This document shows positions 9,942-26,760 of a DNA stretch of 64,000 bases, piece after piece. Below the pieces are notes generated by a model. The model was given only the letters and a program-made list of their open reading frames with translations. It had not been told where the DNA came from and did no database searches. Every line of letters begins with the position of its first letter. The first letter of the stretch is position 1. This DNA comes from Ichthyenterobacterium magnum (GTDB lineage Bacteria; Bacteroidota; Bacteroidia; Flavobacteriales; Flavobacteriaceae): NCBI RefSeq assembly GCF_003610635.1, contig NZ_RAQJ01000001.1:372474-436473 (forward strand). Direction: 5' to 3'. The position numbers and the translations under genes are program-made.

Positions 9942-11459
9942 ATGAATAAGAAAGTAATTTTAATGATTCTAGATGGTTGGGGGAAATCTCCAGACCCACA
10001 AGTATCTGCAATAGATCATGCACAAACACCTTTTATTGATTCGCTTTATAAAACTTATTCTAATGCGTCTTTAAGAACAGATGGTTTACATGTTGGGTTA
10101 CCAGAAGGACAAATGGGAAACAGTGAAGTTGGACATATGAATTTAGGTGCTGGTAGAATTGTTTATCAAGATTTAGCTAAAATAAATCTAGCTGTAAAAA
10201 ACAATACGCTTAAAGATGAAAACACTTTAGTAGAAGCTTTCCAATATGCAAAACACAATAACAAACCCATCCACTTTTTAGGCTTAGTAAGTGATGGCGG
10301 TGTACATTCTCATATTAAACATCTTTTAGGTTTAGTAAATGCTGCTAACGATTTTGGAATTAAAAAGTCATTTGTTCATGCATTTACAGATGGTCGTGAT
10401 GTAGATCCAAAATCTGGATTAAGTTTTATAAACACATTAGAATCTCATATTAAAAACTCTCCCACAAAACTTGCTTCTGTAACAGGACGCTATTATGCTA
10501 TGGATAGAGACAAACGTTGGGAGCGCATTAAATTAGCTTATGATGCAATAGTAAATGGTGTGGGAAATTATTCAGAAAGCGTATTAGAGTCAATTCAAAA
10601 TAGTTATGACGAAAATATAACTGACGAGTTTATAAAACCAATCGTTATGGTTAAAAACAATCAACCCATAGCAACTATTAAAGATGGAGATGTTGTTATC
10701 TTTTTTAATTTTAGAACAGATAGAGGTCGTCAACTCACAGAAGCATTATCTCAAAAAGATTTTCATGAGCAAAACATGCACAAATTAAATTTGCATTTTG
10801 CAACTATGACCAATTATGACGACTCTTTTAAAGGAATTAATGTTATTTACAATAAAGATAATCTTACAGATACTTTAGGTGAAGTGTTAGAGCAACAAAA
10901 CAAAACTCAAATACGTATAGCAGAAACAGAAAAATATCCGCACGTTACTTTTTTCTTTTCAGGAGGACAAGAGCAGCCTTTTAAAGGTGAAACTCGAATT
11001 TTACGTCATTCTCCAAAAGTAGCAACCTACGATTTAAAACCAGAAATGAGCGCCTTTGAATTAACAGATGCTCTTATTCCTGAACTTGAAAAAGGCGATG
11101 TAGATTTTGTTTGCCTAAATTTTGCTAATGGAGATATGGTTGGTCACACAGGAGTTATGGAAGCTGCAATAAAAGCTTGTGAAGCAGTAGATACATGTGT
11201 TAAAAAAGTTATAGAAACAGCTTTAAAAAATGATTACACAACCATATTAATTGCAGATCATGGTAATTGCGAAACCATGATAAACCCTGATGGAACGCCA
11301 CACACAGCGCACACCACCAATCCAGTTCCTATAATTTTAATTGACAATGGCAACTTAGAAATTAAGGATGGTATTTTAGGAGACATAGCTCCTACAATTC
11401 TAAGACTTATGGGAATTAAGCAACCAAAAGCAATGACCCAAAAACCCCTTGTGAGTTAA
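9942..11459 (+). CDS. gpmI: 2,3-bisphosphoglycerate-independent phosphoglycerate mutase
   Basis: A cytosolic glycolytic enzyme interconverting 3- and 2-phosphoglycerate, dependent on two manganese ions. The alkaline-phosphatase-fold start MILDGWG supplies Asp11, and MGNSEVGHMNLGAGR contains the phospho-accepting Ser61. The C-terminal metal ligands are in FANGDMVGHTG and IADHGNCE, followed by HTAHTTNPVP. The length of 505 residues is normal. A TATCTTTG promoter lies 20 nt upstream, and the HAD gene downstream has its own promoter. Confidence 0.97.
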   Translation: MNKKVILMILDGWGKSPDPQVSAIDHAQTPFIDSLYKTYSNASLRTDGLHVGLPEGQMGNSEVGHMNLGAGRIVYQDLAKINLAVKNNTLKDENTLVEAFQYAKHNNKPIHFLGLVSDGGVHSHIKHLLGLVNAANDFGIKKSFVHAFTDGRDVDPKSGLSFINTLESHIKNSPTKLASVTGRYYAMDRDKRWERIKLAYDAIVNGVGNYSESVLESIQNSYDENITDEFIKPIVMVKNNQPIATIKDGDVVIFFNFRTDRGRQLTEALSQKDFHEQNMHKLNLHFATMTNYDDSFKGINVIYNKDNLTDTLGEVLEQQNKTQIRIAETEKYPHVTFFFSGGQEQPFKGETRILRHSPKVATYDLKPEMSAFELTDALIPELEKGDVDFVCLNFANGDMVGHTGVMEAAIKACEAVDTCVKKVIETALKNDYTTILIADHGNCETMINPDGTPHTAHTTNPVPIILIDNGNLEIKDGILGDIAPTILRLMGIKQPKAMTQKPLVS

Positions 11460-11482
11460 ATTTCACAAATAGATATTTATTG

Positions 11483-11490
11483 TATTTTTG
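11483..11490 (+). promoter_or_regulatory. -7 box (TATTTTTG) of the HAD-map-methyltransferase operon
   Basis: A TAnnTTTG match 20 nt before the ATG at 11511, in the short gap after gpmI. Confidence 0.6.
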
Positions 11491-11510
11491 CAGCATCACA
11501 AAATTATGCG

Positions 11511-11924
11511 ATGAATTTTCAAGATAAATTAGTAATAGCCATCGATTTTGATGGCACAATAGTAGAAGATGCCTATCCAAAAGTAGGTAAAGCAAGACTC
11601 TTTGCTTTTGAAACTCTTAAACGACTTCAAGATGATGGTCATCGTCTTATTTTATGGACTTACAGAAGCGGTTCTAAACTTAAAGACGCAGTAGAATTTT
11701 GTGAAGCAAATGGCATTGAGTTTTATGCAGTAAACCAAAGTTTTCCTGAAGAGCAATTTGATAATAGTGTTAGTAGAAAAATTTATGCCGACATTTTTAT
11801 TGACGATAGAAATATTGGTGGCATTTTAGGTTGGGGAGAAGTTTATCAACTAATTACAAAAGAAGCTCCAAACATGAAATCTATAAAACAGAAAAAAGGA
11901 TTCTTTTCATTTTTAAGAAAATAA
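11511..11924 (+). CDS. Small HAD-superfamily hydrolase-like protein
   Basis: A 137-residue protein with HAD motif I as AIDFDGTIVED (nucleophile Asp and second Asp), a motif II threonine in LILWTYRSG, and acidic residues in ADIFIDDRNIGG near the end. There is no large cap domain, as in the BT0820-like group of small Bacteroidota HAD proteins. The substrate is unknown. The last ~15 residues (SIKQKKGFFSFLRK) are basic and hydrophobic. map starts 2 bp after the stop, so the two are co-transcribed. Confidence 0.85.
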   Translation: MNFQDKLVIAIDFDGTIVEDAYPKVGKARLFAFETLKRLQDDGHRLILWTYRSGSKLKDAVEFCEANGIEFYAVNQSFPEEQFDNSVSRKIYADIFIDDRNIGGILGWGEVYQLITKEAPNMKSIKQKKGFFSFLRK

Positions 11925-11926
11925 AT

Positions 11927-12748
11927 ATGATTGTAGTAAAAACAAAAGAAGAAATAGAAATAATGCGCCAAAGCGCACTAGTTGTTTCAAAAACTTTAGG
12001 CATGCTTGCTAAAGAGATAAAACCTGGAGTAACCACACTACAGTTAGATAAAATGGCAGAAGAGTTTATTAGAGCACAAGGTGCTGTCCCTGGGTTTTTA
12101 GGACTTTATGACTGTCCTTCAACTTTATTATGTAGTGTAAACGAAGCCGTAGTACATGGCTTGCCTACAAACACTCCTCTAAAAAATGGTGATATTGTAT
12201 CTGTAGATTGTGGTGCTTTAATGAATGGGTTTTATGGCGATCATGCCTATACTTTTGAAATAGGCGAAGTGTTGCCAGAAACAAAAAAACTAATTGAGGT
12301 TACTAAAGAATCTTTATATGTAGGCATTAGAGAATTAAAAGTTGGTAATCGTGTTGGAGATGTTGGTTATGCCATTCAAAAGTATTGCGAAAATCATGGT
12401 TATGGTGTAGTTAGAGAACTCGTTGGTCATGGTTTAGGTCGTAAAATGCATGAAGATCCAGAAATGCCAAATTATGGAAAACGTGGTCGTGGCAAAAAAT
12501 TTATTGAAGGCATGGTTGTAGCTATTGAACCTATGATAAATGGCGGAACACATCGTGTTAAACAATTAAAAGATGGCTGGACTATTGTCACGCTTGATGG
12601 CAAACCAAGTGTTCATTTTGAACATGACATTGCAATTGTTGACGGTAAACCAGAACTATTATCAACCTTTGCATATGTGCATGAAGCTTTAGACATAAAA
12701 AGTGATGAAGAAAACGAGTTTAGAAATCAGTTTACAGTAAACAGTTAA
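11927..12748 (+). CDS. map: Type I methionine aminopeptidase
   Basis: Removes initiator methionine from nascent proteins. The pita-bread fold ligands are visible: His in VVHGLPTN, Asp in VSVDCGALMNGFYGDHAYTF (two Asp), His in LVGHGLGRKMHEDP, Glu in VAIEPM and Glu in VHFEHDIAI. The ATG at 11927 starts the canonical MIVVKTKEEIE N-terminus; the longer open frame from 11831 is a read-in from the HAD gene. The final residues (QFTVNS) and the stop codon are encoded by a CAGTNNN repeat array, so the tail of the protein was set by repeat insertion or expansion. Confidence 0.95.
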   Translation: MIVVKTKEEIEIMRQSALVVSKTLGMLAKEIKPGVTTLQLDKMAEEFIRAQGAVPGFLGLYDCPSTLLCSVNEAVVHGLPTNTPLKNGDIVSVDCGALMNGFYGDHAYTFEIGEVLPETKKLIEVTKESLYVGIRELKVGNRVGDVGYAIQKYCENHGYGVVRELVGHGLGRKMHEDPEMPNYGKRGRGKKFIEGMVVAIEPMINGGTHRVKQLKDGWTIVTLDGKPSVHFEHDIAIVDGKPELLSTFAYVHEALDIKSDEENEFRNQFTVNS

Positions 12749-12762
12749 CAGTTTTCAGTTGA
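12728..12762. repeat. Five exact CAGTNNN heptads spanning the map/methyltransferase junction
   Basis: Read in sevens, the bases are CAGTTTA CAGTAAA CAGTTAA CAGTTTT CAGTTGA. The third unit supplies the TAA stop of map (12746-12748), and the last supplies the TTG start of the next gene (12759-12761). A related CAGT/ACTG-rich segment lies between nqrE and nqrD. Confidence 0.85.
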
Positions 12763-13526
12763 AAAAACTCTTTAAAACTTTTCTAAACATAATCCCAAGG
12801 CCTTTACTTATAAGGTTAAGTTATCTTGTTAGGCCTATTCTTGCATTTTTTTTAAAAGGAAACACCTTTACAGATCCTATTGATGGTAAATCGTTCAGGA
12901 GTTTTTTACCTTATGGTTATGGCAACCAACGTAACAATGTGTTATCACCATCAACACTTTCACTAGAACGCCATAGACTACTTTGGCTATTTTTAAAAAA
13001 TGAAACCGGTTTCTTTTCAAAAAAACTTAAAGTACTCCATTTTGCTCCAGAACAAGCTTTTTACAAACGCTTTAGAACTATGAAGAATTTGGATTATATA
13101 ACTACAGATTTACACTCGCCTTTAGCAGATGTAAAAGCAGATATTTGTAATTTACCTTTTAAAGATAATAGCTACGATGTAATTTTATGCAATCATGTTT
13201 TAGAACACATTTCTGATGATACTAAAGCGATGAAAGAATTATATCGTGTTTTAAAACCTGAAGGTATGGGCGTTTTTCAAATTCCTCAAGATTTATCTCG
13301 AGAACACACTTTTGAAGATAATACTATAACTGATAAAAAAGAACGCGCTAAAATTTTTGGTCAGTATGATCATGTTCGTATTTATGGTCGTGATTATTTT
13401 GACAAACTTCGCTCTGTTGGTTTTAAAGTAAAGGAAGTTGATTACACATCTAAATTAACAAAAGAAAACGTAACCAAATACTGTTTAGCTAAAGGCGAAA
13501 TTATTCCTGTAGTTTACAAATCTTAG
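12759..13526 (+). CDS. Class I SAM-dependent methyltransferase (Methyltransf_11)
   Basis: A 255-residue protein with an amphipathic N-terminus (MKKLFKTFLNIIPRPLLIRL) that may bind membrane. A methyltransferase core follows: VLHFAPEQAFYKRF in place of motif I, DYITTDLHSPLAD, then FKDNSYDVILCNHVLEHI and MKELYRVLKPEGMGVFQIP, typical of Methyltransf_11. Motif I lacks the usual GxGxG, as in some Bacteroidota relatives. The substrate is unknown. The TTG start lies in a CAGT repeat 11 bp after map, and the 3' end overlaps apbE by 4 bp. Confidence 0.85.
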   Translation: MKKLFKTFLNIIPRPLLIRLSYLVRPILAFFLKGNTFTDPIDGKSFRSFLPYGYGNQRNNVLSPSTLSLERHRLLWLFLKNETGFFSKKLKVLHFAPEQAFYKRFRTMKNLDYITTDLHSPLADVKADICNLPFKDNSYDVILCNHVLEHISDDTKAMKELYRVLKPEGMGVFQIPQDLSREHTFEDNTITDKKERAKIFGQYDHVRIYGRDYFDKLRSVGFKVKEVDYTSKLTKENVTKYCLAKGEIIPVVYKS

Positions 13527-14500
13527 TCAACAGGAAACCCATTAATTGCTATTGATTCTAGATTTTGCTTATCGTTTTCAAAAATTAAAAATGCTTTAAG
13601 TTCTGGATGCGACTGAAGAAAACGTTTTACGTTTTCGATTCCCATAGACTTAAAAGCCGTTGCGTAAGCATCTGCAGTCATACAATCTTTTGCAATTACA
13701 GATATTCCCAACAGATTTGTTTGACTTGGATACCCAGTTTTTGTATCAATAATATGTGCGTAACGATTACCATTTTTATCAATTTTAAACTTTCTGTACG
13801 TTCCAGAAGTTGCCATGGCTTCGTCTGTTAAACTAATTGCTTTATAAACAGATTGCGAGCCATCAAAATTAGGCTTATCAATACCAACACGCCAAGGTGA
13901 TTTTTTTTCAACATTTAATCCTTTAGCACGTATCTCGCCTCCTATTTCTACTAAATAATTTTTTGTGTTTTTACCCTCTAAAAATTCGGCAATTACATCC
14001 ACGCCATAGCCTTTAGCAATAGCATTAAAATCTATTCTGGTTTCTGAGTTTCTTTTAATAATCTTCTCGTTTATTAAGCCAACTTTATTCAAGCCTACAG
14101 TTTGCATTAAATTATTAATCTTTACACTATCTAAATCTTTTACAGCACCTTCTGGTCCAAAATCCCATGCATTAACAACAACCCCAATTGTTGGATCAAA
14201 TGCGCCTTCTGTAAGTCGGTAAATAGACTTAGAAGCCTTAAAAACTTTTATAAAATGATTATCAACATTAAATGCTTCGTTTCTATTTAATTTTGAAATA
14301 TCTGAATTGTCTTGATAGGTTGACATTGATTTATTAATCACATAAAACAAACTATCTAATTGTTTTTCATAATTAACCTCATTGTCATAAATAACTGAAT
14401 ATGACGTGCCAAAAACAGCTCCAGATAGCTTTGTATTTTTTGATTCCTTTTTACAAGACACTATAAAAAGGATAATCATTAAGTAGGTAATAGGTTTCAT
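13523..14500 (-). CDS. apbE: FAD:protein FMN transferase (ApbE), lipoprotein
   Basis: Transfers FMN from FAD to a threonine in acceptor proteins. The N-terminus MKPITYLMIILFIVSCKK is a lipoprotein signal, placing the enzyme outside the inner membrane, where the flavinylation sites of NqrB and NqrC are exposed. ApbE hallmarks are STYQDNSDISKLN, AFDPTIGVVVNAWDFGP, DFNAIAKGYGVDVIAEFL, VEIGGEIRAKG and TADAYATAFKSMG. Length (325) is normal. It is downstream of, and 1 bp from, a small gene read in the same direction. The likely acceptors, encoded by nqrB and nqrC, lie ~20 kb away in this window. Confidence 0.95.
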   Translation of the reverse strand: MKPITYLMIILFIVSCKKESKNTKLSGAVFGTSYSVIYDNEVNYEKQLDSLFYVINKSMSTYQDNSDISKLNRNEAFNVDNHFIKVFKASKSIYRLTEGAFDPTIGVVVNAWDFGPEGAVKDLDSVKINNLMQTVGLNKVGLINEKIIKRNSETRIDFNAIAKGYGVDVIAEFLEGKNTKNYLVEIGGEIRAKGLNVEKKSPWRVGIDKPNFDGSQSVYKAISLTDEAMATSGTYRKFKIDKNGNRYAHIIDTKTGYPSQTNLLGISVIAKDCMTADAYATAFKSMGIENVKRFLQSHPELKAFLIFENDKQNLESIAINGFPVD

Positions 14501-14501
14501 T

Positions 14502-14879
14502 TTAATTTAAATTGGTTTCTACAACTTGTATCCCATTGTATTCAATAAGGTAATCTTCATTTAAGTAAATTGGCAAATCTTCACCGTTAGGATTTCCTAA
14601 ACCTACTCCAGCATACAATACTTTTGCATCTTTATCATGTGCATGTTTTTTAAATGTTTCCATCCAAATTACATCATAATTGTTAGGGTTCTCGGGTAGA
14701 ATTACTGCTTTTACAATAACAAAAAAATACTGATTGTTTTTATCAATACACACAAACTGTGGATGCTTTTTTAATTTGCTATTAACAGCTACAAACTCAA
14801 AACCACGTTGTTCTAAATCTTTACCAACGTGATTCATAGCTAGGTTATGTAATTCTTGTTTTGTTAATGCTTTGTTCAT
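14502..14879 (-). CDS. Conserved 125-residue protein upstream of apbE
   Basis: A soluble protein without signal peptide or named motif. It has alternating strands and helices (FEFVAVNSKLKKHPQFVCID, YFFVIVKAV, AKVLYAGVGLGNP). As far as I recall, relatives beside apbE in flavobacteria have sometimes been labelled NADH-quinone reductase subunit F, but this product has none of the ferredoxin cysteines or flavin-binding motifs of NqrF, so that label looks wrong. The 1-bp spacing to apbE points to a role linked to flavinylation or NQR. A TATTTTTG box ends 4 nt before its ATG. Confidence 0.75.
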   Translation of the reverse strand: MNKALTKQELHNLAMNHVGKDLEQRGFEFVAVNSKLKKHPQFVCIDKNNQYFFVIVKAVILPENPNNYDVIWMETFKKHAHDKDAKVLYAGVGLGNPNGEDLPIYLNEDYLIEYNGIQVVETNLN

Positions 14880-14883
14880 ATTG

Positions 14884-14891
14884 CAAAAATA
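14884..14891 (-). promoter_or_regulatory. -7 box (TATTTTTG) of the 125-aa gene / apbE operon
   Basis: On the complement TATTTTTG is followed by CAAT and then the ATG at 14879, so transcription would begin at or beside the start codon (leaderless). No clear -33 element. Confidence 0.55.
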
Positions 14892-15003
14892 GCATAAAAG
14901 TTAATTTAGTGATGACTTTTTTTAAAGCATACGATATACAAGAAAACACAAATAGAACTTATATGTCTTTAATCTATAAAAAACAGTCTTTAAGCAAATT
15001 AGA

Positions 15004-15034
15004 TTGTAAAAGTCGATGCTTTGATATATCTTTA
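15004..15034 (+). promoter_or_regulatory. Candidate promoter of the ECF sigma operon
   Basis: TTG (15004-15006), a 20-nt spacer, then TATCTTTA, which differs from TAnnTTTG only at the last base. It ends 8 nt before the sigma factor ATG. TATCTTTA also precedes the VWA gene (28262-28269) and the secreted lipase-like gene (45529-45536). Confidence 0.35.
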
Positions 15035-15042
15035 ATTAGTAT

Positions 15043-15639
15043 ATGCAAAAAGTCGATTTTAAATCTAATCTAACCCAAAAAAGCGCTCAACTTGTTGCTG
15101 CCATTAAGGCTAATGACGAAATGGTATTAAAATCATTATATATCACAAATTATCAAAAAATTGAGTTTCTGGTTTTAAAAAACAATGGAACAAAAGAACA
15201 TGCTAAAGACATCTATCAAGATGCTTTTTTAGCTGTTTGGAGAAACATTAAAGACAATAAATTTGAACCAAAAAATGAATCCTCTATTAATGGATACCTA
15301 TATACTATAGCAAAAAACAAATGGATGGATTTTTTACGATCAAAAAATTATAAAAAAACAATATTAAATAATGATATAGCTACATTGAAAAGCGATAATT
15401 TACATATACATCCTTCTACTCAAGACCATGAGTTTGAACTTAAATTAAATCAAGCAATGAAAGCTTTTGAGAGTTTGGGTGAACCCTGTAAATCATTATT
15501 AAAATCGTTTTATTTTGATAAAAAATCGATGAAAACAATTGCAAATGAATTACAAATTGATGCAGCTTCAGTTAAAAACAAAAAATATAGATGTATGCAA
15601 AAATTAAGACTATTAGCCCAAAATCTAAACAAAACATAG
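15043..15639 (+). CDS. ECF-type sigma-70 family RNA polymerase sigma factor
   Basis: A 198-residue group 4 sigma factor. Region 2 spans roughly residues 28-95, with AKDIYQDAFLAVWRNI (core binding and -10 melting) and SINGYLYTIAKNKWMDFLRS. Region 4 lies near residues 140-190, with a helix-turn-helix in MKTIANELQIDAASVKNKKYRCMQKLR. There is no region 1 or 3. It is followed after 1 bp by a membrane TPR protein and then a TPR-CHAT protein, so it is probably the regulator of that cassette. The target promoters are unknown. Confidence 0.9.
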   Translation: MQKVDFKSNLTQKSAQLVAAIKANDEMVLKSLYITNYQKIEFLVLKNNGTKEHAKDIYQDAFLAVWRNIKDNKFEPKNESSINGYLYTIAKNKWMDFLRSKNYKKTILNNDIATLKSDNLHIHPSTQDHEFELKLNQAMKAFESLGEPCKSLLKSFYFDKKSMKTIANELQIDAASVKNKKYRCMQKLRLLAQNLNKT

Positions 15640-15640
15640 C

Positions 15641-16402
15641 ATGAATGCTGAAAAACAAAATATAACACAAGAAGAATTTGAACTTATAGAACGTTACCTA
15701 CTTAACACTATGAGCGAAACTGAGTTTATTTCTTTTAATGAAACTCTAAAAACTGATTCTCTATTAAAAGAAAAAGTTGAAAATTGTCGCATTACTCTTC
15801 AAGCCATTGAAGAGCAATCATTAATAGAAAAATTTGATACTTTTCATCAAGAGATTACATTAGAAAATAATAGCAAAATTATTTCACTTTCAGATAATGT
15901 AAAACAAGTCAAATGGTATAAAAAGTATACTGTTGCGGCATCAATTATACTACTACTTGGTCTATCTGGTATTTGGTATTTATCTTCAACCCAAAACCCT
16001 AAACAACTGTATAATAAATACTTTAATGTAGATCCAGGTTTACCAACAATTATGAGCGATAATACTAGTCATTTTAAGTTTTATGATGCTATGGTAAATT
16101 ATAAACAAGGTGAGTATATTATTGCTATTTCAAAATGGGAAGCTTTACTTAAAAACAAGCCTCAAAATGATACTTTAAATTATTTTATAGGTGTTGCACA
16201 TTTAGCAAATAAAAATGAGGATGCTGCAATAAAGTTTCTTGATAATGTTATTCTAAACTCAAATACAACTTTTAAAAATGAAGCTTATCATTATCTAGGT
16301 TTAGCATATTTAAAAACAAATAATATTGAGCTTGCAAAAAAAAACCTTACCTTTAGTACTATTGATAATAGCAAAGCCCTTCTTTCTGAACTAAACGACT
16401 AA
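15641..16402 (+). CDS. Single-TM TPR protein, putative anti-sigma factor
   Basis: A 253-residue protein in three parts. An ~85-residue N-terminal helical region (FELIERYLLNTMSETEFISF, then LKEKVENCRITLQAIEEQ) resembles the cytoplasmic sigma-binding part of Bacteroidota anti-sigma proteins. One TM helix follows (about residues 96-116, YTVAASIILLLGLSGIWYLS), and then ~130 residues of TPR-like helices (YKQGEYIIAISKWEALLKN, NYFIGVAHLANKNEDAAIKF, AYHYLGLAYLKTNNIELAKK), predicted periplasmic. Its position 1 bp after an ECF sigma gene supports an anti-sigma role; no zinc ligands are seen. The function is inferred from layout only. Confidence 0.75.
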   Translation: MNAEKQNITQEEFELIERYLLNTMSETEFISFNETLKTDSLLKEKVENCRITLQAIEEQSLIEKFDTFHQEITLENNSKIISLSDNVKQVKWYKKYTVAASIILLLGLSGIWYLSSTQNPKQLYNKYFNVDPGLPTIMSDNTSHFKFYDAMVNYKQGEYIIAISKWEALLKNKPQNDTLNYFIGVAHLANKNEDAAIKFLDNVILNSNTTFKNEAYHYLGLAYLKTNNIELAKKNLTFSTIDNSKALLSELND

Positions 16403-16415
16403 AAGACTTTTAGTA

Positions 16416-19400
16416 ATGAAAAAAATATGCTATTTCAAGAAAGTTGTATTGTACTTATTTATAAGCTTCAATATGACAGCTTTTTCTCAAAATGATTCCA
16501 TTTCTGGATTAGAATATGTTAAAAAACTAATAGAAACTGATGCTTTACAAGAAGCTCAAAAAGAATTAAACACACAAATTGAATATTTTAAATCTCAACA
16601 AAATTATGACACTTTGGTTTCATACATTCCTTTAGTTGGGAGTTTTAAGTTAGCCAATGGAGATTCTAAAATTGCTATTGATAAAGCATTAGTTTTAGTT
16701 AATAACTTAAAGCAACAAAAAAACCCAACAATTTCTACTGATGCTTTAATTCAATTATCAAATATTTATTTTAATGCTAGACAAGCAAATGAGGTCTATA
16801 AAACCTGTGTTGAAGCTTTAGAACTTGCTATGCAAATTCAACCTATAGATTGGTTTAAAATATCAAAAATTCAATACAACTTAGGAACAGCCTCTCTCAA
16901 TCTAGGGCAATATAATAAAGGTAAAGAGCATCTTTATAAATCTAAGTCCATTTTAGAACAAAGCTCAAAAAAAAACTTAAAACAGTTATATAATACCTAT
17001 AATTCTATTGGTAGATTTCAATCTAGTAAAACTCAAATAGACAGCTCTACATATTATTATAAAAAAGCTTTAAAAATGTTAAGCTTAATGGATAGCACAG
17101 AAGTTAATCGAGACTATTGGAAAGCAATCGTAAACAATAACATTTCTTTAAATTTTCAAAACACAGGAAATACTGATGCGGCTATAACATATATAACAGA
17201 TGCAATTTTTAACTTTCAAAAATTTATTGATATTGCTAAAGACGAATCAAAAAAATTAAGAGCTAAACGATATCGACTCTCTTCTATTGATAATTTAGGA
17301 ACCTTTTATGATGGCATAGGAGAATATAATAGAGCGGTAGAATTGATGACTTATTCGTATCATGAAAAATTAAAATTTTTAAAAAAGGAAGACCCCAATA
17401 TTGTTTTCTCTTTAGTTCTATTAGGTCACACCAACCTTAAAGCACAAAATTATATTAAAGCTGCAGAATATACAGACAAAGCACTTGTATTAATACATAA
17501 AACGCCAATCAATTACAGTTATATACACAGTTTTACATTAACTATTAGAGCATCTATATATGAGGCTATGAAAGATTTTGAAGGTGCAAAAAAATTGTAT
17601 GAAGATAGTGAGGTGTTATATAGAAAAAATTTTGATGGTAATTACTCCAGAGATTATTTAGATGCTTTAATAGAAATGTCTAAGTTTTATGCAAAAACTA
17701 ACGACTCAAAAAAAGCTATAGAACTTGCAATGAAAGGCTATTTATTCGCAAAAAAAGAAAACTTTGAAAATAACTTAACACAATTTCACCAAACACTAAA
17801 CTTAGCATTAGTCTATCTAGAACTTGAAAACCATGAAAAAGCTTTAATATATAGTGAAGAAGCTTTGTCCTTTTTTAAAGATAAAAAACTAAATCCAAAA
17901 TCACTATCAGACTCTATTCAAAATGAATTTAATAAACCAAAAGCATTATACATAAATGCAAAATCTAGATATATTCTTAACACTAATAAAAACAAGTCTT
18001 TTTTAAAATCAATTTTAAATGATATAGAAGAAAGTATTACTATTTTAGAACGAAGAAAAGTTACTATAAAAACACCCGATGATTTAAATTTACTTATTCA
18101 AGAAAACAATGACTTATTCAATTTTGCTAAGCAAATTCGTTTAGATCTTTATAAAAAAACTAATAACGAAACTTATTTACAAGATTTAATTGCCATACAT
18201 GAGTCTAGTATCTATAATAGAATAAGGTCTCGATTAAACCTAAGAAACAACATTACTTTTTCTGGTTTACCTAAAAAAGTAGCAGCAAGAGAAACCTTTC
18301 TAAAAAACAAACTAAACTCATCATTAAACTCATCTCAAAATACGATTAAAAACTTTATTGAATCAACAACACAATGGCATCAATTTATAGATTCTTTAAA
18401 ACAACATTTCCCGAAGTATTATAAAATGCGTTATGCTACAATTGAGGAGCCACTAACTAATTTACAAAACAACATCTCAACAAATACAACCATAGTTCGT
18501 TATCTTTATATAGAAGATATTCTTTATGCTTTTGTAGTTACTAAAACAAACAAAAGCTTAGTTAGACTTAACACAGAAAACCTAAAAGAAAGCATTGAGT
18601 ATTTAACCAAAAACCAGTCTGATATTTTAAAAACCAGCACCAAACTACATGAACTATATTTAAAATTGTGGCAACCTATTGTAAACTTAATTACAACAGA
18701 TAAAGTAATTTTAATTCCAGACGGAAATCTTTTTAATTTAAGTTTTGAAACTCTAACACCTTCAAAAATAAGCACCTTTAAAGATTTAGCAACTAATAGT
18801 CTTTTAGCAAAACATAGTTTTTCATATAACTATAGTTTATTTTTATTAAACTCTGATAATAAAAAAGTTAACTATAGTAGTGATTTTATTGCTTTTGCTC
18901 CTGAGTTTACAAGTAAAATGAAACATGCATATAAAATTACGGTTACAGACTCTGTGAGTTTAGATAAAACCTACCTTACATTATTACCTCAACCCTTTAG
19001 TGTTGACTTAGCTAAAAAATATTCTAAAATTTTTAAAGGATCTTCGTTTTTAAATGAAAAAGCCTCAAAGCAAATTTTTACAAATGAAGCTAATGAGCAT
19101 AAAATTATACATATTGGCACACATGCAGAATCTAATAATATTAGTCCTGAATTATCCCGCTTAATTTTTGCAAAAAACGCATCTAGCGATGATAACTCAT
19201 TATATACTTATGAGATTTACAATCAAAACTTAAACTCAAATTTAGCCATTTTAACAGCTTGTGAAACTGGCAAGCCAACATACCAAGCTGGCGAAGGTAT
19301 GATTTCTTTAGCTCATGCTTTTAATTATGCTGGTAGTGAGAGTATATTAACTAGTCTTTGGAAAATTGATGAGCAATCTAGCACACAATTAATTAAATCT

Positions 19401-19640
19401 TTTTACGATTATATTGCCAAAGGACTACCTAAAGATATTGCTTTAAAAAAGGCAAAATTAGATTATATTTCTACTGCAAATGGAAGAATAGTTGCTCCTC
19501 AATATTGGGCAGGACTCGTTTTAATTGGTGACCAATCTCCTATACAAATCAATACCAACTCTAATTTTATTTTCTGGCTATTTGGTGTTTTAATAATTAT
19601 TCTTTTAATGATATTGATTAAGAAAAAACGAAAAACATAA
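16416..19640 (+). CDS. TPR-CHAT caspase-like protease with signal peptide and C-terminal TM
   Basis: A 1074-residue protein. A signal peptide (VVLYLFISFNMTAFSQ) is followed by some 600 residues of TPR repeats (for example IQYNLGTASLNLGQYNKGKE, VSFSLVLLG-type units, ALIYSEEALSFFKDKK). A CHAT domain follows (about 760-1035), then a C-terminal TM helix (about 1047-1066) with a KKKRKT tail. The catalytic dyad of the caspase-like fold is present: His903 in IHIGTHAES and Cys949 in LTACETGKP, followed by GEGMISLAHAFNYAGS and SLWKIDE. The protease domain would sit in the periplasm, on the same side as the TPRs of the putative anti-sigma factor 13 bp upstream. Substrates are unknown. Confidence 0.9.
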   Translation: MKKICYFKKVVLYLFISFNMTAFSQNDSISGLEYVKKLIETDALQEAQKELNTQIEYFKSQQNYDTLVSYIPLVGSFKLANGDSKIAIDKALVLVNNLKQQKNPTISTDALIQLSNIYFNARQANEVYKTCVEALELAMQIQPIDWFKISKIQYNLGTASLNLGQYNKGKEHLYKSKSILEQSSKKNLKQLYNTYNSIGRFQSSKTQIDSSTYYYKKALKMLSLMDSTEVNRDYWKAIVNNNISLNFQNTGNTDAAITYITDAIFNFQKFIDIAKDESKKLRAKRYRLSSIDNLGTFYDGIGEYNRAVELMTYSYHEKLKFLKKEDPNIVFSLVLLGHTNLKAQNYIKAAEYTDKALVLIHKTPINYSYIHSFTLTIRASIYEAMKDFEGAKKLYEDSEVLYRKNFDGNYSRDYLDALIEMSKFYAKTNDSKKAIELAMKGYLFAKKENFENNLTQFHQTLNLALVYLELENHEKALIYSEEALSFFKDKKLNPKSLSDSIQNEFNKPKALYINAKSRYILNTNKNKSFLKSILNDIEESITILERRKVTIKTPDDLNLLIQENNDLFNFAKQIRLDLYKKTNNETYLQDLIAIHESSIYNRIRSRLNLRNNITFSGLPKKVAARETFLKNKLNSSLNSSQNTIKNFIESTTQWHQFIDSLKQHFPKYYKMRYATIEEPLTNLQNNISTNTTIVRYLYIEDILYAFVVTKTNKSLVRLNTENLKESIEYLTKNQSDILKTSTKLHELYLKLWQPIVNLITTDKVILIPDGNLFNLSFETLTPSKISTFKDLATNSLLAKHSFSYNYSLFLLNSDNKKVNYSSDFIAFAPEFTSKMKHAYKITVTDSVSLDKTYLTLLPQPFSVDLAKKYSKIFKGSSFLNEKASKQIFTNEANEHKIIHIGTHAESNNISPELSRLIFAKNASSDDNSLYTYEIYNQNLNSNLAILTACETGKPTYQAGEGMISLAHAFNYAGSESILTSLWKIDEQSSTQLIKSFYDYIAKGLPKDIALKKAKLDYISTANGRIVAPQYWAGLVLIGDQSPIQINTNSNFIFWLFGVLIIILLMILIKKKRKT

Positions 19641-19667
19641 AAAAGAGCTATCATTTTTGATAACTCT
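19639..19667. terminator. Bidirectional hairpin between the CHAT gene and the T9SS protein gene
   Basis: AAGAGCTATCA-TTTT-TGATAACTCTT. On the complement the single mismatch becomes a G-T pair and the stem is followed by a T-run, so it best serves the minus-strand gene. It also follows the CHAT stop. Confidence 0.6.
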
Positions 19668-19729
19668 TCTCGTATAATAAACCCTAAATAATAACTTCCC
19701 TAATTAATAGCAGAGGATTTATATCATAA

Positions 19730-22360
19730 TTATTGTTTGACTAAACGGTTTACAATTGAACCATTATTAGAATTTATTCTAAAAAAGTAAATACCGCTTG
19801 AATAGTTGTCTAATGAAATAATATGATTTGTTACCATTTCTTTAAAATTGATTTTTTGTATCAAACGACCATTGATATCAATAATTTCGGCATATGATAG
19901 CTCAAGATTGTTTGGATTGCTTAGTATTAACTTATCTTGTATTGGGTTAGGATATAATATTAAGCTTTCCATAAGTTTATCTGTAACCGATAAGGATTCT
20001 CCATCAACATCAAATTCAAAATCCCCAAACTCATCCTCATTAAACCCTCTAATGCCAATAAAATACGTTGTACTTCCATCTGATGTAAATGCGTTATTCT
20101 GTCGCCAACCAGATGAACATCCTGGCTCTGCAACTAGCTCATTGGAGGTAAATGGATAAACACATGTTAAACTACTACAGTCTCCTGTAAACACACCTAG
20201 CTGAACTGAAAAAGGTCTATCACAAAAAGAAATGATGATATCTTCTTCACTACCCAACCCTGTGTACGAAAACCAAACTACTTTTTCATCATCATTCGTT
20301 GGGTTATTGCAAAGCGGAACATTATCAAAATTGGTAGCCCAAGTGGTGTCTCCAGAATAAGATGTACCTCTTTGGATAGCAATAGCATCTATGCAGTTAT
20401 TATTTACTGGCGGCGGCGGTGGAATACTAATGCACAGATCAAATGATGCATCTCGTCCATCTTCAAATGAAGCTCTATTCATTGTTAATCTAAGATAGTA
20501 TGTATTACCAATCACTAAGTTGTAATAAATATAAATTTCATCATCATCATTGTATGAACAGAAAAGTCTATCTACATCATCTTGAGTATTACAGTCAATA
20601 ATATTATCAAAAAGTACTGCATTGTAATCTGAGTCGCTAAAATCATTGTTTGTTCCAATAATTTTAAATTGATATGAGGTTGATGTTGCTACAAAAGAGT
20701 ACCATACATCTTCATCATGAAAACCACAATCATCAAAATTATCTGGAGAATACGTTGCTCCCAGTGTGTTGCCACTAGTACTAAATTCGCAATCACCACC
20801 AGTAGGCAATAATAATTCAGCATTCTCACAATCGTTATTAGCTGGAATTAAAGACTGCAACCACTCAAAAGGACCAGCCCAATCACTAAATATACCACTA
20901 CCACAATCTGTTCTAACATAAAACTCATAGGTTTCATTTACGCTACCACTAACTGAAACAGAGGTTTCTGTAGTTGATGTACCAGAACCTGTAGGTGCTC
21001 CCAAACCATCTAACTGCACCACATACTCCCAAATGCTTTCGCTACCATCATAGTCTGTCCAAGAAATATCAGCATCGGTTTCAGAAGTTACAGTAACATC
21101 CAAATCAACTGGAAGTACACAACCTATTGCTTCTACGCAAATTTCTGAGACTGTTGTGTTAGGAAAACCAGATCTCCAAACTGCAAGGCTGTATTCTGTA
21201 TTAGGGTCTAAATCCAGTACTGTTTGTTGATTCATATTTGTTGGGTTTCTATAACAAAACACCTCGCTATCTCTAAAACAAACACCTTGACTATTACAAT
21301 TAAGTGTGTGTATAACAAAGTTGTCATCAGCATTATCGGTTGTAATCTTTATAGCACCATTTGGAGGACTTGTAAACCGATACCAAAACCCATGCTTTTC
21401 AACTGTGGCTTGTGGATCACAGGCAAAATTCAAATACACATCGGTGTTATTTGGAAATCTATAAAACGGAAAACCGTTATTATAATCAAAATTAATGGTT
21501 GGTTCCAAAGTGCAACTATCTGGCGATAGATTAATAGAAATAGGAAAAGCAACAGACTCGCCTTCTACAGGTTGAACTATAGTATAAGGTCCTATCCATT
21601 GGCTATTATTTACACCACAACTGGTTTGCAAATAGTAATCATAAGATACTCCTGAGGTTAAACCAGTAATAATAGGGAAATTATTATCTGGTATACTATC
21701 ATCTGTAATTTGCATGCCATTTCCAAGTGTAAAACCTGTTTCTCCATATTCAACTATCCAACCACTTTCGTTTGATACAATTCTTCTCCAGGTAAAAACA
21801 GATTCTGTAAGTAATCGTGGCGATCCATCTAATGCATATGGACTTGGACAGTTAAAGCTATCGTTAGAAAACTCGTCTAGATACAAAACACCACCTGTTG
21901 CCATAGAGACAATAGCGATATAAACCAATTGATTATTATATGCCGAGAGGTCATATGCATATAAATCATAGTTTCCAAACTCGGCATCTGGAGCAGTTTC
22001 TGTAGCAATTATGTTTGTAAAATCTGAGGAATCTGTTCCTGTTGTTGATAACCGCACTTCAAAATTCTGTTCCATAAAATCACCACGAACATGAAAGGAA
22101 ATACGTTCAGAAACACCAGAAGTAATTATAAATTGTGGTGTAATTAAATAATCTTCATCAATATCACTGTCATTAAATATAGCAAGACCATCGCCTCCGC
22201 CCCAAGAATAAAGCGAAGTAGACTCCCACAAATCATTTCCAGAACCATCTAGTACTGTCCAATTATTAGGAATTCCTGAATTAAAATCTTCAAAAAACTG
22301 TGCATTAACTATAGTTATATATAATAATGAAATTGTAAAAAAAAGTAAAATTCGTTTCAT
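19730..22360 (-). CDS. T9SS-secreted multidomain surface protein (choice-of-anchor J, FnIII)
   Basis: An 876-residue exported protein. A signal peptide (MKRILLFFTISLLYITIVNAQ) precedes a choice-of-anchor J-like module (FFEDFNSGIPNNWTVLDGSG, DYLITPQFIITSG). Fibronectin-III-like segments follow near 180-270 and 410-500 (WIVEYGETGFTLGNG; ISWTDYDGSESIWEYVVQL), then beta-rich units with NDCENAELLLP and NNCIDAIAIQRG. The C-terminus (YPNPIQDKLILSN, then IIDINGR, then YSSGIYFFRI, ending RLVKQ) is a type A T9SS sorting signal. The role is adhesion or matrix binding by analogy; no enzyme motif is seen. Signal peptide, sorting domain and upstream leader all resemble those of the neighbouring adhesin. 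Confidence 0.88.
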   Translation of the reverse strand: MKRILLFFTISLLYITIVNAQFFEDFNSGIPNNWTVLDGSGNDLWESTSLYSWGGGDGLAIFNDSDIDEDYLITPQFIITSGVSERISFHVRGDFMEQNFEVRLSTTGTDSSDFTNIIATETAPDAEFGNYDLYAYDLSAYNNQLVYIAIVSMATGGVLYLDEFSNDSFNCPSPYALDGSPRLLTESVFTWRRIVSNESGWIVEYGETGFTLGNGMQITDDSIPDNNFPIITGLTSGVSYDYYLQTSCGVNNSQWIGPYTIVQPVEGESVAFPISINLSPDSCTLEPTINFDYNNGFPFYRFPNNTDVYLNFACDPQATVEKHGFWYRFTSPPNGAIKITTDNADDNFVIHTLNCNSQGVCFRDSEVFCYRNPTNMNQQTVLDLDPNTEYSLAVWRSGFPNTTVSEICVEAIGCVLPVDLDVTVTSETDADISWTDYDGSESIWEYVVQLDGLGAPTGSGTSTTETSVSVSGSVNETYEFYVRTDCGSGIFSDWAGPFEWLQSLIPANNDCENAELLLPTGGDCEFSTSGNTLGATYSPDNFDDCGFHDEDVWYSFVATSTSYQFKIIGTNNDFSDSDYNAVLFDNIIDCNTQDDVDRLFCSYNDDDEIYIYYNLVIGNTYYLRLTMNRASFEDGRDASFDLCISIPPPPPVNNNCIDAIAIQRGTSYSGDTTWATNFDNVPLCNNPTNDDEKVVWFSYTGLGSEEDIIISFCDRPFSVQLGVFTGDCSSLTCVYPFTSNELVAEPGCSSGWRQNNAFTSDGSTTYFIGIRGFNEDEFGDFEFDVDGESLSVTDKLMESLILYPNPIQDKLILSNPNNLELSYAEIIDINGRLIQKINFKEMVTNHIISLDNYSSGIYFFRINSNNGSIVNRLVKQ

Positions 22361-22398
22361 GATTAATAGCTTTATAAGGTTGATATACTATTACATCG
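22361..22398 (-). promoter_or_regulatory. Leader segment shared with the adjacent adhesin gene (copy 1)
   Basis: The 38 bases next to the start codon closely resemble 26723-26760 upstream of the neighbouring T9SS gene (ATTAATAGC, ATATACTAT, ACATCG conserved in order and spacing). Both signal peptides begin MKR. This is a duplicated 5' leader or shared regulatory site. Confidence 0.6.
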
Positions 22399-22419
22399 GT
22401 AAAGTCAGTAAATGTCATC

Positions 22420-22452
22420 AAAAAGGACGACCACCAAAAAGGTGATCGCCCC
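22420..22452 (-). terminator. Terminator of the large adhesin gene
   Basis: On the complement GGGCGATCACC-TTTTT-GGTGGTCGTCC forms an eleven-pair stem with two G-T pairs, followed by TTTTT. Confidence 0.75.
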
Positions 22453-22483
22453 AAATAAACCAATAATATGAAACGATAACTTA

Positions 22484-25400
22484 TTATTGCTTAATTAATC
22501 GTTTTGTAATTGAATTGTTTGATGCATTTATTTTTACAAAATACATCCCACTAGAATAGGTGTCTAATGAAATTTCTTTAACCGTATTCATGTTTCTAAG
22601 GTTAATAATACTAATAACTTTACCCGTAACATCAATGATTTCAGCATTAATCAATTCTAATCTACTTGTGTTTTTTAATGTAACTATGTTAAATGCTGGA
22701 TTAGGAAACAAAGAAATATCTGCATCATTCAACTCATTATCATTAATACTTAAGGTGTCATCAACAGTTACTTTAAAAGAACACTCAGCTGTATTTCCAG
22801 AATCGTCTGTAACTTCAACTCTAATATTATGACTTCCAGGACCAAGTTCTGTTCCTGGTATTGGTGTTTGTACACGATCGAGGTCATCATCACAGTTATC
22901 TGAAACTACAACGGTTCCATCTTGAATATAATTTGGGACTGTATATGTACCATCTACCTGTACTGTAAAATCACTAGGGCAAATTATTTCTGGCAATGTA
23001 TTATCAATCAATGTTACGGTCGCTGGTACTGATGCGCTATTGCTACTTTGGTCAGTTACTATTAAGTTTACTGTGTTTGCACCTAAATCTTCACAGGTAA
23101 AATCGGTTACATCTAAGCTTAAAGTACTCATCATACAATTATCTGATGACCCATCATTAACGTCTGCTGGCACTATTGATGCATTTCCTGAAGCATCTAA
23201 CTGAACTATAATATCTTGAGTAACTACTATTGGATTTTCAGTATCATTTATCGTAACATTAAACGTACAAACATCTGTATTACCTGATGCATCGGTTGCT
23301 GTTACTGTTACTTCTGTTGTTCCTAACGGAAACACACTGCCTGATGCTGGAACACTCGAGGTTGTTACTCCTGGACAATTATCTGTTGCTGATGCCATAA
23401 ATGTAACTACGGCATCACATGAACCTGAATCGTTTGATTGAACAATATCATCTGGACAGGTTACTACTGGGTTTTCAGTGTCATTTATCGTAACATTAAA
23501 CGTACAAACATCTGTATTACCTGATGCATCGGTTGCTGTTACTGTTACTTCAGTTGTTCCTAACGGAAACACACTGCCTGATGCTGGAACACTCGAGGTT
23601 GTTACTCCTGGACAATTATCTGTTGCTGATGCCATAAACGTAACTACGGCATCACATGAACCCGAATCGTTTGATTGAACAATATCATCTGGACAGGTTA
23701 CTACTGGGTTTATAGAGTCTTCAACTGTTACTATAGCAGTTGCATTAGCTGAGTTTCCATCATTATCAGTCACTGTAAGTATTACTGAATTATCACCTAC
23801 ATCTGCACATGTAAAAGCGGTAATATCTAAAGAAAACACTAACTCATTTGTTGGTGTACAATTATCAGTTGTACCATCATCTACATCAGTATCGACTATG
23901 CTAACATTCCCTGTAGCATCTAATTGAACTGTAATATCTTGAGTAATTATATCTGGAGGCAAAATATCTAACTTATCTGAAATGGTAAGCAATACAGAAT
24001 TACTTTCAGGATATGTAACATCAAAAGTATATCGTTTTCCGTCATAATCAACAATGATAGGTGTTACTAAATTTTCAGTAGAATTTGTTCCAGAAACTGT
24101 TGCTATTGTAAATGTATCTCCTTGGTTAGCTTCAAAACCCATTATAATATTAACATTGCCTTCAAACACAACATTGGTACCAGTTATTGCTAAAACATCA
24201 TGCTCGGTATCTGGTGTTAAACCATTTAATTCAATATCTAGAATAGTATTTATTGTAGATATATAATTTCCTATAACAGTTAATGTTCCTGGTGACGCTC
24301 CTGGTGCAAATGTCCCATCATTGGTAAATATGGAAATCGCAGGTAAATCGAATATTGCATTTCCTTTTACGACTCCACCTACTTGATGGTCTAATGTACT
24401 CGAAAAACTCATTGTTCCTGTTTCGGCATCAATAATTCCAGAATTAGTAACCTCAACACCAATATTTGATTTATCAGCAACTATATCGTTAGTATAAGCC
24501 GTTCTTAAAATTCCTGCATTATTTAAAATTCTAGGTACAGCACCACTTCCAGAAAATCCTGAGTCATCACCTATAAATTGAATGACACCAGTTTCGGTAT
24601 TATTTAAAACAGCATTAGTACCAATAAATATATCTCCTAATCCATTAAAATCAATATCACCATTGTTGGTTAATGTAGAACCTGCTGACATAGTAATGTT
24701 ACTATCTAAAATTGAAATTCTACTCTCATTTACAAGTGTCCCGCTTTGAAGGCTTCCACTTGCCCAAGTCACAGTTTCACTCCCTAAGAAATCAAATGTT
24801 GCTGTTTCTGCTGGTGCAATAATAGCAGTACTTCTCCAATTTATTATACCATCAACAGTTCCTGATAGCACTCCAGATAATGTAATGGTTGTGTCCCAAT
24901 CTAAAGTTCCATCTGCAAATACGTTATAAGTTCCATCATTTAACTCAATCCCAGGGCTACTTAAATTAAGCGTCCCATTTTCAACCTGTATTATACCATT
25001 ATTATTTTTTAATTCAACACTTATTGTTGCTTTGTCTGTAATATCAGAAAATGTTGCTTTAATAATCCCTTCATTATTTAATAGTCTAGGTAAGCCTCCT
25101 GACCCAGAGAATCCAGAATCGTCGCCTTGTAAATCAATTACACCTGTACTAGTATTATTTAAAACAGCATCTGTTGAGATAAAAATATCGCCTCCTCCAG
25201 AAAAATTGATTTTATCATTATTAATTAGGGTAGTAGCAATATTTATAAACACATTACCTATCTGTATTTCTATGATACTATTGTTGGTAAGTACACCTCC
25301 ACCAGCCAAAGAACCTGAAGGCCAATTTACAGTTCCGTTTCCAGTAAAATCAAACGTTGCGGTACCTAAAACACTGGTTGTACTTCTCCAGTTAAAATCA

Positions 25401-26722: not shown

Positions 26723-26760
26723 AATTAATAGCATTTAAAGATTTATATACTATCACATCG
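26723..26760 (-). promoter_or_regulatory. Leader segment shared with the adjacent T9SS gene (copy 2)
   Basis: Resembles 22361-22398 over the whole 38 bases next to the start codon; see that entry. Confidence 0.6.

Follow-up and report, generated by a model that had tools for sequence, protein, structure and literature searches.

The DNA analyzed here is a stretch of 64,000 nucleotides from Ichthyenterobacterium magnum (contig NZ_RAQJ01000001.1, positions 372,474 to 436,473; hereafter, the window). It contains a three-gene cassette that encodes an extracytoplasmic function (ECF) sigma factor, a membrane protein with tetratricopeptide repeats (TPR) and an exported protein combining TPRs with a CHAT domain. 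This cassette is probably a transmembrane sigma switch, in which the CHAT protein serves as the periplasmic site-1 protease of an anti-sigma factor. The original prediction, made from the bare sequence, held that the CHAT protease could cleave the TPR protein. A conserved juxtamembrane motif of the TPR protein and one residue of the CHAT domain vary together; proteolysis therefore appears to be the best explanation, and the cut is described below as a predicted one.

Under the scheme that we propose, the N-terminal cytoplasmic domain of the TPR protein would keep the ECF sigma factor inactive, and the single transmembrane (TM) segment would connect this domain to a short periplasmic linker and the TPR domain. 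The exported TPR-CHAT protein, anchored in the same membrane, would sense a signal via its own TPR array and cut the linker, in the window after M138 and before S139. This site-1 cut would shed the TPR ectodomain, after which release of the sigma factor would fall to a site-2 protease of the M50 type and to cytoplasmic proteases. The preference for the residue preceding the cut (P1) would be set by the CHAT residue located four positions after the tryptophan of an SLW motif (E986), and because of this, paralogous cassettes in one cell would be kept apart. The cleavage, the topology, the sigma inhibition, the site-2 step and the signal are all parts of the scheme that we infer; what the sequences themselves display is the set of genes, their conserved linkage, an intact catalytic dyad, the conserved linker motif and its covariation with CHAT. 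A broader generalization, namely that widespread periplasmic caspase-like site-1 proteases, free of CRISPR (clustered regularly interspaced short palindromic repeats), fire ECF sigma factors of Bacteroidota, with a one-residue code (CHAT residue versus linker P1) insulating the cassettes, has in our estimate slightly better than even chances.

Layout and conserved linkage of the cassette

The features of the cassette are as follows (aa, amino acids; ORF, open reading frame):

15043..15639, +, ECF sigma factor gene, 198 aa (ORF list, profile searches)
15641..16402, +, membrane TPR protein gene, 253 aa, presumed anti-sigma factor (ORF and profile; role suggested by position and a fused model)
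TPR protein residues 1-95, +, presumed cytoplasmic sigma-binding domain
15929..15985, +, TM hydrophobic segment, TPR protein residues 97-115 (hydropathy)
16028..16057, +, conserved periplasmic linker motif, TPR protein residues 130-139 (conservation)
16052-16054, +, codon of M138, after which the cut is predicted
16067..16399, +, periplasmic TPR domain, TPR protein residues 143-253 (profile, alignment)
16416..19640, +, exported TPR-CHAT protease gene, 1074 aa (ORF, profile)
16416..16490, +, Sec-like N-terminus, CHAT protein residues 1-25 (by eye)
18645..19532, +, CHAT domain, residues 744-1039 (Pfam, alignments)
19122-19124 and 19260-19262, +, codons of His903 and Cys949, within the CHAT domain
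19371..19373, +, codon of Glu986, the residue covarying with the linker (pair alignments, tree)
19563..19619, +, C-terminal hydrophobic anchor, CHAT protein residues 1050-1068 (hydropathy)

The predicted arrangement of three co-directional ORFs on the plus strand, with the ECF sigma factor gene followed after 1 bp by the TPR protein gene and, 13 bp further, by the TPR-CHAT gene, was confirmed. The sigma factor matches Sigma70_r2 of Pfam (41.5 bits, cut-off 24) and sigma70-ECF of NCBIfam (TIGR02937; 75.8 bits, cut-off 42.9), and the Pfam models of region 4 score below their cut-offs on residues 137-189. The TPR protein matches TPR_2 (29.7 bits, cut-off 27, residues 214-235), and the third protein contains a CHAT domain (PF12770) scoring 126.7 bits (cut-off 24). 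As anticipated, hydropathy and charge indicate a single TM segment in the TPR protein: residues 97-115 are the best hydrophobic segment, with basic residues before it and the ECF gene adjacent. Export and anchoring of the CHAT protein are likewise supported by an N-terminus that, by eye, is Sec-like and ends in FSQ, and by the C-terminal hydrophobic segment, which is followed by a basic tail. The orientation of membrane proteins generally follows the positive-inside rule, by which the TPR and CHAT domains would be periplasmic and residues 1-95 of the TPR protein cytoplasmic; thus, by hydropathy and charge, the TPR ectodomain and the CHAT domain are predicted to face the same side, in agreement with the original prediction. 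The catalytic dyad is intact as well, H903 and C949 being retained in 12 of the 12 relatives that reach them in the first alignment (the 13th row, L030, stops short) and invariant across the 27 rows of the second (A2).

Lack of conserved linkage would have spoken against the original prediction, but linkage of the genes in related genomes proved strong and persists through rearrangement. Across 149 genomes of the family, 82 of the 106 CHAT genes lie at most 10 kb from a full-length TPR homologue and 81 of the 93 TPR genes are linked to a CHAT gene in this manner; 57 genomes possess both, 4 only the TPR protein and 10 only CHAT (TPR homologues are matches down to E 2.7e-15, weaker partial matches being excluded). 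In the fetched loci, the CHAT gene is located downstream and co-directional, convergent, divergent, or within a divergent operon. The source genome itself encodes two CHAT proteins and two TPR-protein homologues, and the second pair is adjacent, with its own ECF gene, in the convergent layout. Among 79 loci with CHATs of the window's type in named genomes (from the best 80 of 202 relatives), titled mostly as Flavobacteriaceae genera or unnamed Bacteroidia and in one case as Chlorobiota, the sigma-TPR-CHAT trio is consecutive in 61, including L187, L188 and L196, where the trio forms a further cassette next to the CHAT that was matched, which stands alone. The remaining 18 include 3 TPR genes for which no sigma factor was called, 1 extra small ORF, 2 loci at contig ends, and 12 CHATs without an adjacent pair, 11 of them titled Aequorivita. 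Outside the family, 49 TPR loci, hand-picked from among the matches listed, were fetched, and the TPR protein was called again in 48, of which 28 contain a CHAT within the fetched stretch (in one of them, L319, the dyad is missing). Across the phylum, CHAT is present in 148 of the 296 genomes sampled, a count of presence regardless of linkage.

Covariation of the linker and the CHAT domain

The linker between the TM segment and the TPRs is the most conserved part of the TPR protein: over a thinned set of 68 window-type rows, identity averages 0.83 for residues 129-139, 0.57 for the TPR domain and 0.40 for the N-terminal domain. Since a few of the 68 rows were chosen as Met type, the cleaner figure is the presence of the linker Met in 64 of the 64 window-type pairs from named genomes. 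With a slash marking the presumed cut, the window-type linker mostly reads 'PDPGLPT[TV]M[SG]' (M138/S139 in the cassette studied), and the other types read '..R/[GSD]', e.g., 'ITRGE' in convergent loci, 'LPSLV.RGD' in divergent ones and 'ISLTVRG' in divergent operons. An AlphaFold model obtained for a relative shows the linker as a coil, with the Met (326) inside 325-327, one of four stretches with predicted local distance difference test (pLDDT) values below 50. A conserved, disordered juxtamembrane stretch of this kind looks like a cleavage site or a docking motif.

The P1 pocket of clan CD enzymes is formed in part by a loop that carries a conserved aromatic residue (PMC4357240), and in human separase, the substrate Arg is contacted by Asp2070, which lies 41 residues past the catalytic Cys2029 (PMC12609080). 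The covarying CHAT residue lies 37 residues after Cys949 and, judging by motif and spacing, appears to occupy the position of the separase Asp. In the 116-row tree set, Asp at this position is paired with a linker Arg in 75 of 78 rows, and 37 of the 38 rows with another residue there have a non-Arg linker (Met, Lys, Gln or Leu). These 37 comprise Glu with Met throughout the window-type clade (30 rows), Glu paired with Lys or Gln (L153, L157, L352, L158), Ala with Leu or Met (L320, L338) and Pro with Met (L325). The tree requires five changes of the CHAT residue, four of which, by our reading, accompany a change of the linker (the one in L348 does not), and the Pagel test of dependent versus independent change yields a likelihood ratio of 23.5 (4 degrees of freedom, p 1e-4, on one quick tree). 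The two cassettes of the source genome differ in the same manner, Met/Glu in the window and Arg/Asp in the second. An outside check of the pairing of non-Asp with non-Arg is provided by a CHAT chain in PDB with Cys 627, the same number as in the published Scalindua TPR-CHAT, which has Ser at the covarying position; the substrate of Scalindua Craspase is cut after Leu407 (PMC9729208).

Assignment of P1 was partly manual. A rule was applied within a span of 13 residues, after which 19 rows were set by eye: 10, L325 and L338 included, overrode the rule, another Lys or Arg standing in the span, and the other 9, all of window type, were assigned Met for the tree. A single masked model of the motif confounded two registers and was used only for the window-type rows and for L320, L325 and L338, where it places Leu, Met and Met, respectively, at the site. 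Of the window-type rows from the scan of named genomes, one in eight was retained for the tree, and L215, with a gap at the column, was left out of the code counts.

Linkage and covariation would follow equally if CHAT bound the linker without cutting, as a co-sensor gripping the anti-sigma ectodomain and altering its hold on the sigma factor, and the presence of TPRs in both proteins would suit such a role. We consider this unlikely, given that His and Cys are retained at the dyad columns in 173 of 177 TPR/CHAT pairs and that motif and spacing equate the covarying residue with one of the P1 pocket. The pairs lacking the dyad, which were left out, are L030 and L044 (contig or stretch ends), L091 (split gene) and L319.

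Loci that lack the CHAT gene offer cases of natural loss. At the chromosomal site of the window's cassette, next to a gene of 125 aa and one resembling apbE, CHAT is absent in some relatives. The motif Met is lost in the CHAT-less loci L032 (linker 'INTNIKD') and L115 ('LPEINIK'; no sigma factor called); in L095, also CHAT-less, the Met is retained and the next residue is changed ('LPTSMNH' versus intact forms like 'LPTTMSS'). In the genomes of L032 and L095, no CHAT of the window type was observed, and one CHAT in the genome of L115 was left out of this check. In L034, which has no adjacent CHAT, the linker 'LPTTMGT' is retained and a Glu-form CHAT is encoded elsewhere in the genome (L355); in L091, where the CHAT gene is split, the linker is intact. 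Few as they are, these cases fit selection on the linker by a matching CHAT.

The same loci bear on another scenario, in which CHAT is an output of the active sigma factor, with substrates elsewhere, and a different protease cuts the linker. The divergent-operon loci have CHAT at or close to the end of an operon that encodes exported proteins and faces the sigma-TPR pair, a layout suggestive of co-expression with likely target genes. Nevertheless, the linker varies along with the CHAT domain, the Met or its neighbor has changed in the three CHAT-less loci described above, and L034, with its window-type CHAT elsewhere in the genome, has kept the Met, so we regard this scenario, too, as improbable.

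Several observations weigh against the proposed switch. The code has exceptions: Lys with Asp in L147 and L156, Leu with Asp in L331 and Arg with Glu in L348. The independent-pairs test points in the same direction as the Pagel test but includes 3 supported pairs, with a median p of 0.25. In the full-length CHAT model, pLDDT is below 50 over most of 814-1049, and as the domain model is unreliable, residue 986 was placed by sequence motif and spacing. Some loci with Arg linkers have no CHAT next to them; the class genomes concerned encode CHATs elsewhere, so that a partner might act in trans, and no CHAT was found in the genomes, about 80% complete, of L119 and L139, which have Arg linkers. The single M50 protease of the source genome lends no special support because such proteases are present in 14 of the 14 control genomes. 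Finally, contact between the sigma factor and the TPR protein relies on one fused model, and mutual information between the two (180 pairs) yields no signal pointing to the N-terminal domain: the top 20 pairs comprise 11 in the linker, 7 in the TPR domain and 2 in the N-terminal domain. We take mutual information as a subtype signal rather than as evidence of contact.

The claim of an anti-sigma-like N-terminus in the original prediction has gene position and the AlphaFold model as its whole basis, and the TPR protein is presumed here to be an anti-sigma factor. In this model, a sigma-TPR fusion from a relative, the N-terminal helices are confident, and the sigma part is slightly nearer to anti-sigma-bound structures (8z6g 0.43, 1or7 0.42) than to those bound to RNA polymerase (0.32-0.35). 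Given that Foldseek produced no match reaching E 0.001 with this model, the support for contact is weak; the rows shown by a second structural aligner match the TPR part. Contact being presumed and the coevolution analysis uninformative, the TPR protein might instead activate the sigma factor or tether it to the membrane. Pairs of ECF sigma and anti-sigma factors, however, typically have this gene order and one-TM design, and the fused model leans weakly the same way, so that an activator or tether seems to us highly improbable.

As for autoregulation, a TTTG-17-TGTAT pair is found upstream of 23 of 63 sigma genes, versus 5-6 for the commonest shuffled word. Because this pair looks like what we take to be an ordinary Bacteroidota promoter, it provides no evidence for autoregulation.

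Relationship to known systems

The nearest published logic is that of Craspase (Csx29, Csx30, RpoE/CASP-sigma; PMC10028731, PMC9729208, PMC11106740), in which the TPR-CHAT protease of type III-E CRISPR systems cuts Csx30, a protein that restrains a sigma factor (PMC10028731). The original prediction of a relative of this logic holds as an analogy with a homologous protease domain: a TPR-CHAT protease would act on the restrainer of an ECF-type sigma factor, and 7 of the 10 matched PDB sequences are CHAT proteins (8rot being the best CHAT match), at least 6 of them Craspase-type TPR-CHAT. Unlike Craspase, the CHAT protein here is exported and membrane-anchored, the presumed substrate is a one-TM TPR protein, and conservation of the presumed site sets it apart from the sites that Craspase orthologues cut, which are not conserved (A/S, L/D, M/K). 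The RAMP domain (PF03787) characteristic of Cas7-11/gRAMP has no match in the source genome (99.83% complete), in contrast to 4 of 14 control genomes; no CRISPR array was found among the 20 largest of 29 direct-repeat families in positions 10000-26000 of the window; and the sigma factor scores 41.1 bits against the type III-E family NF041236, below the cut-off of 100. PADLOC, searched for defence systems, gave only weak partial matches (12.6-14.8 bits).

In architecture, the proposed switch resembles regulated proteolysis of the membrane anti-sigma factor RseA, where a periplasmic first cut by DegS is followed by site-2 cleavage by RseP and cytoplasmic proteolysis (PMC10028731); the site-1 enzyme here would be a linked caspase-like cysteine protease rather than a DegS-type serine protease. 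Separase is also a clan CD protease with a TPR-like region, in which P1 Arg contacts Asp (PMC12609080), but it is eukaryotic, cytosolic or nuclear, and has other substrates; the likeness drawn here is one of motif and spacing. HetF of Anabaena is a CHAT protein of a regulatory pathway, called a putative protease, and is, in contrast, a developmental and divisome protein for which the portion of the source consulted mentions no sigma/anti-sigma partner (PMC8406250). No published account of this cassette was found in a search of open-licence literature, a collection that omits most subscription journals; among the papers this search brought up, only those on type III-E join CHAT to a sigma factor.

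To our knowledge, few CHAT proteins have a known substrate, Craspase being the case at hand. For a whole CHAT family, the present analysis names a likely substrate, a predicted scissile bond and a predicted specificity residue. If these predictions are correct, caspase-like proteases enter everyday envelope signalling, type III-E protease-sigma logic has a non-CRISPR counterpart, and insulated protease/substrate pairs are on offer.

Variant loci and neighboring genes

At the site that corresponds to 13523-15042 of the window, relatives (L032, L091, L095, L108, L115) carry the cassette at successive stages of decay: the CHAT gene is split or lost, no sigma factor is called, or the TPR protein is shortened. 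Caspase (PF00656) was considered as a swapped-in partner at CHAT-less loci and rejected: 10 genomes were searched, 5 had matches, and none of the matches listed lies within 10 kb of such a locus.

The lone window-type CHATs of Aequorivita, with no sigma factor or TPR gene beside them, are L177, L178, L179, L182, L184, L185, L186, L189, L194, L195 and L239. Conversely, two tandem window-type CHAT genes follow a single sigma-TPR pair in L163, L170, L221, L230 and L088. Two genomes of class Bacteroidia (G459, G531) encode at least 10 CHATs each, together with many sigma-TPR pairs that differ in linker code, and are a natural test bed for insulation between cassettes.

The divergent-operon cassettes L041:8753-15998 and L104:3954-10807 encode exported proteins with lipoprotein-like starts, a 650-aa exported protein, CHAT and, after it, a small protein with a DTGA motif, which we take to be aspartyl-protease-like. 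Downstream of a divergent cassette, L142:7253-9683 encodes, as judged by eye, a 527-aa protein along with short peptides whose leaders are of the GG type, an arrangement reminiscent of peptide-secretion clusters. In the window itself, two large exported proteins with similar C-terminal tails are encoded at 19730-26734 on the minus strand; a type 9 secretion sorting domain was called in the first, and the second has internal repeats of approximately 552 and 237 nucleotides.

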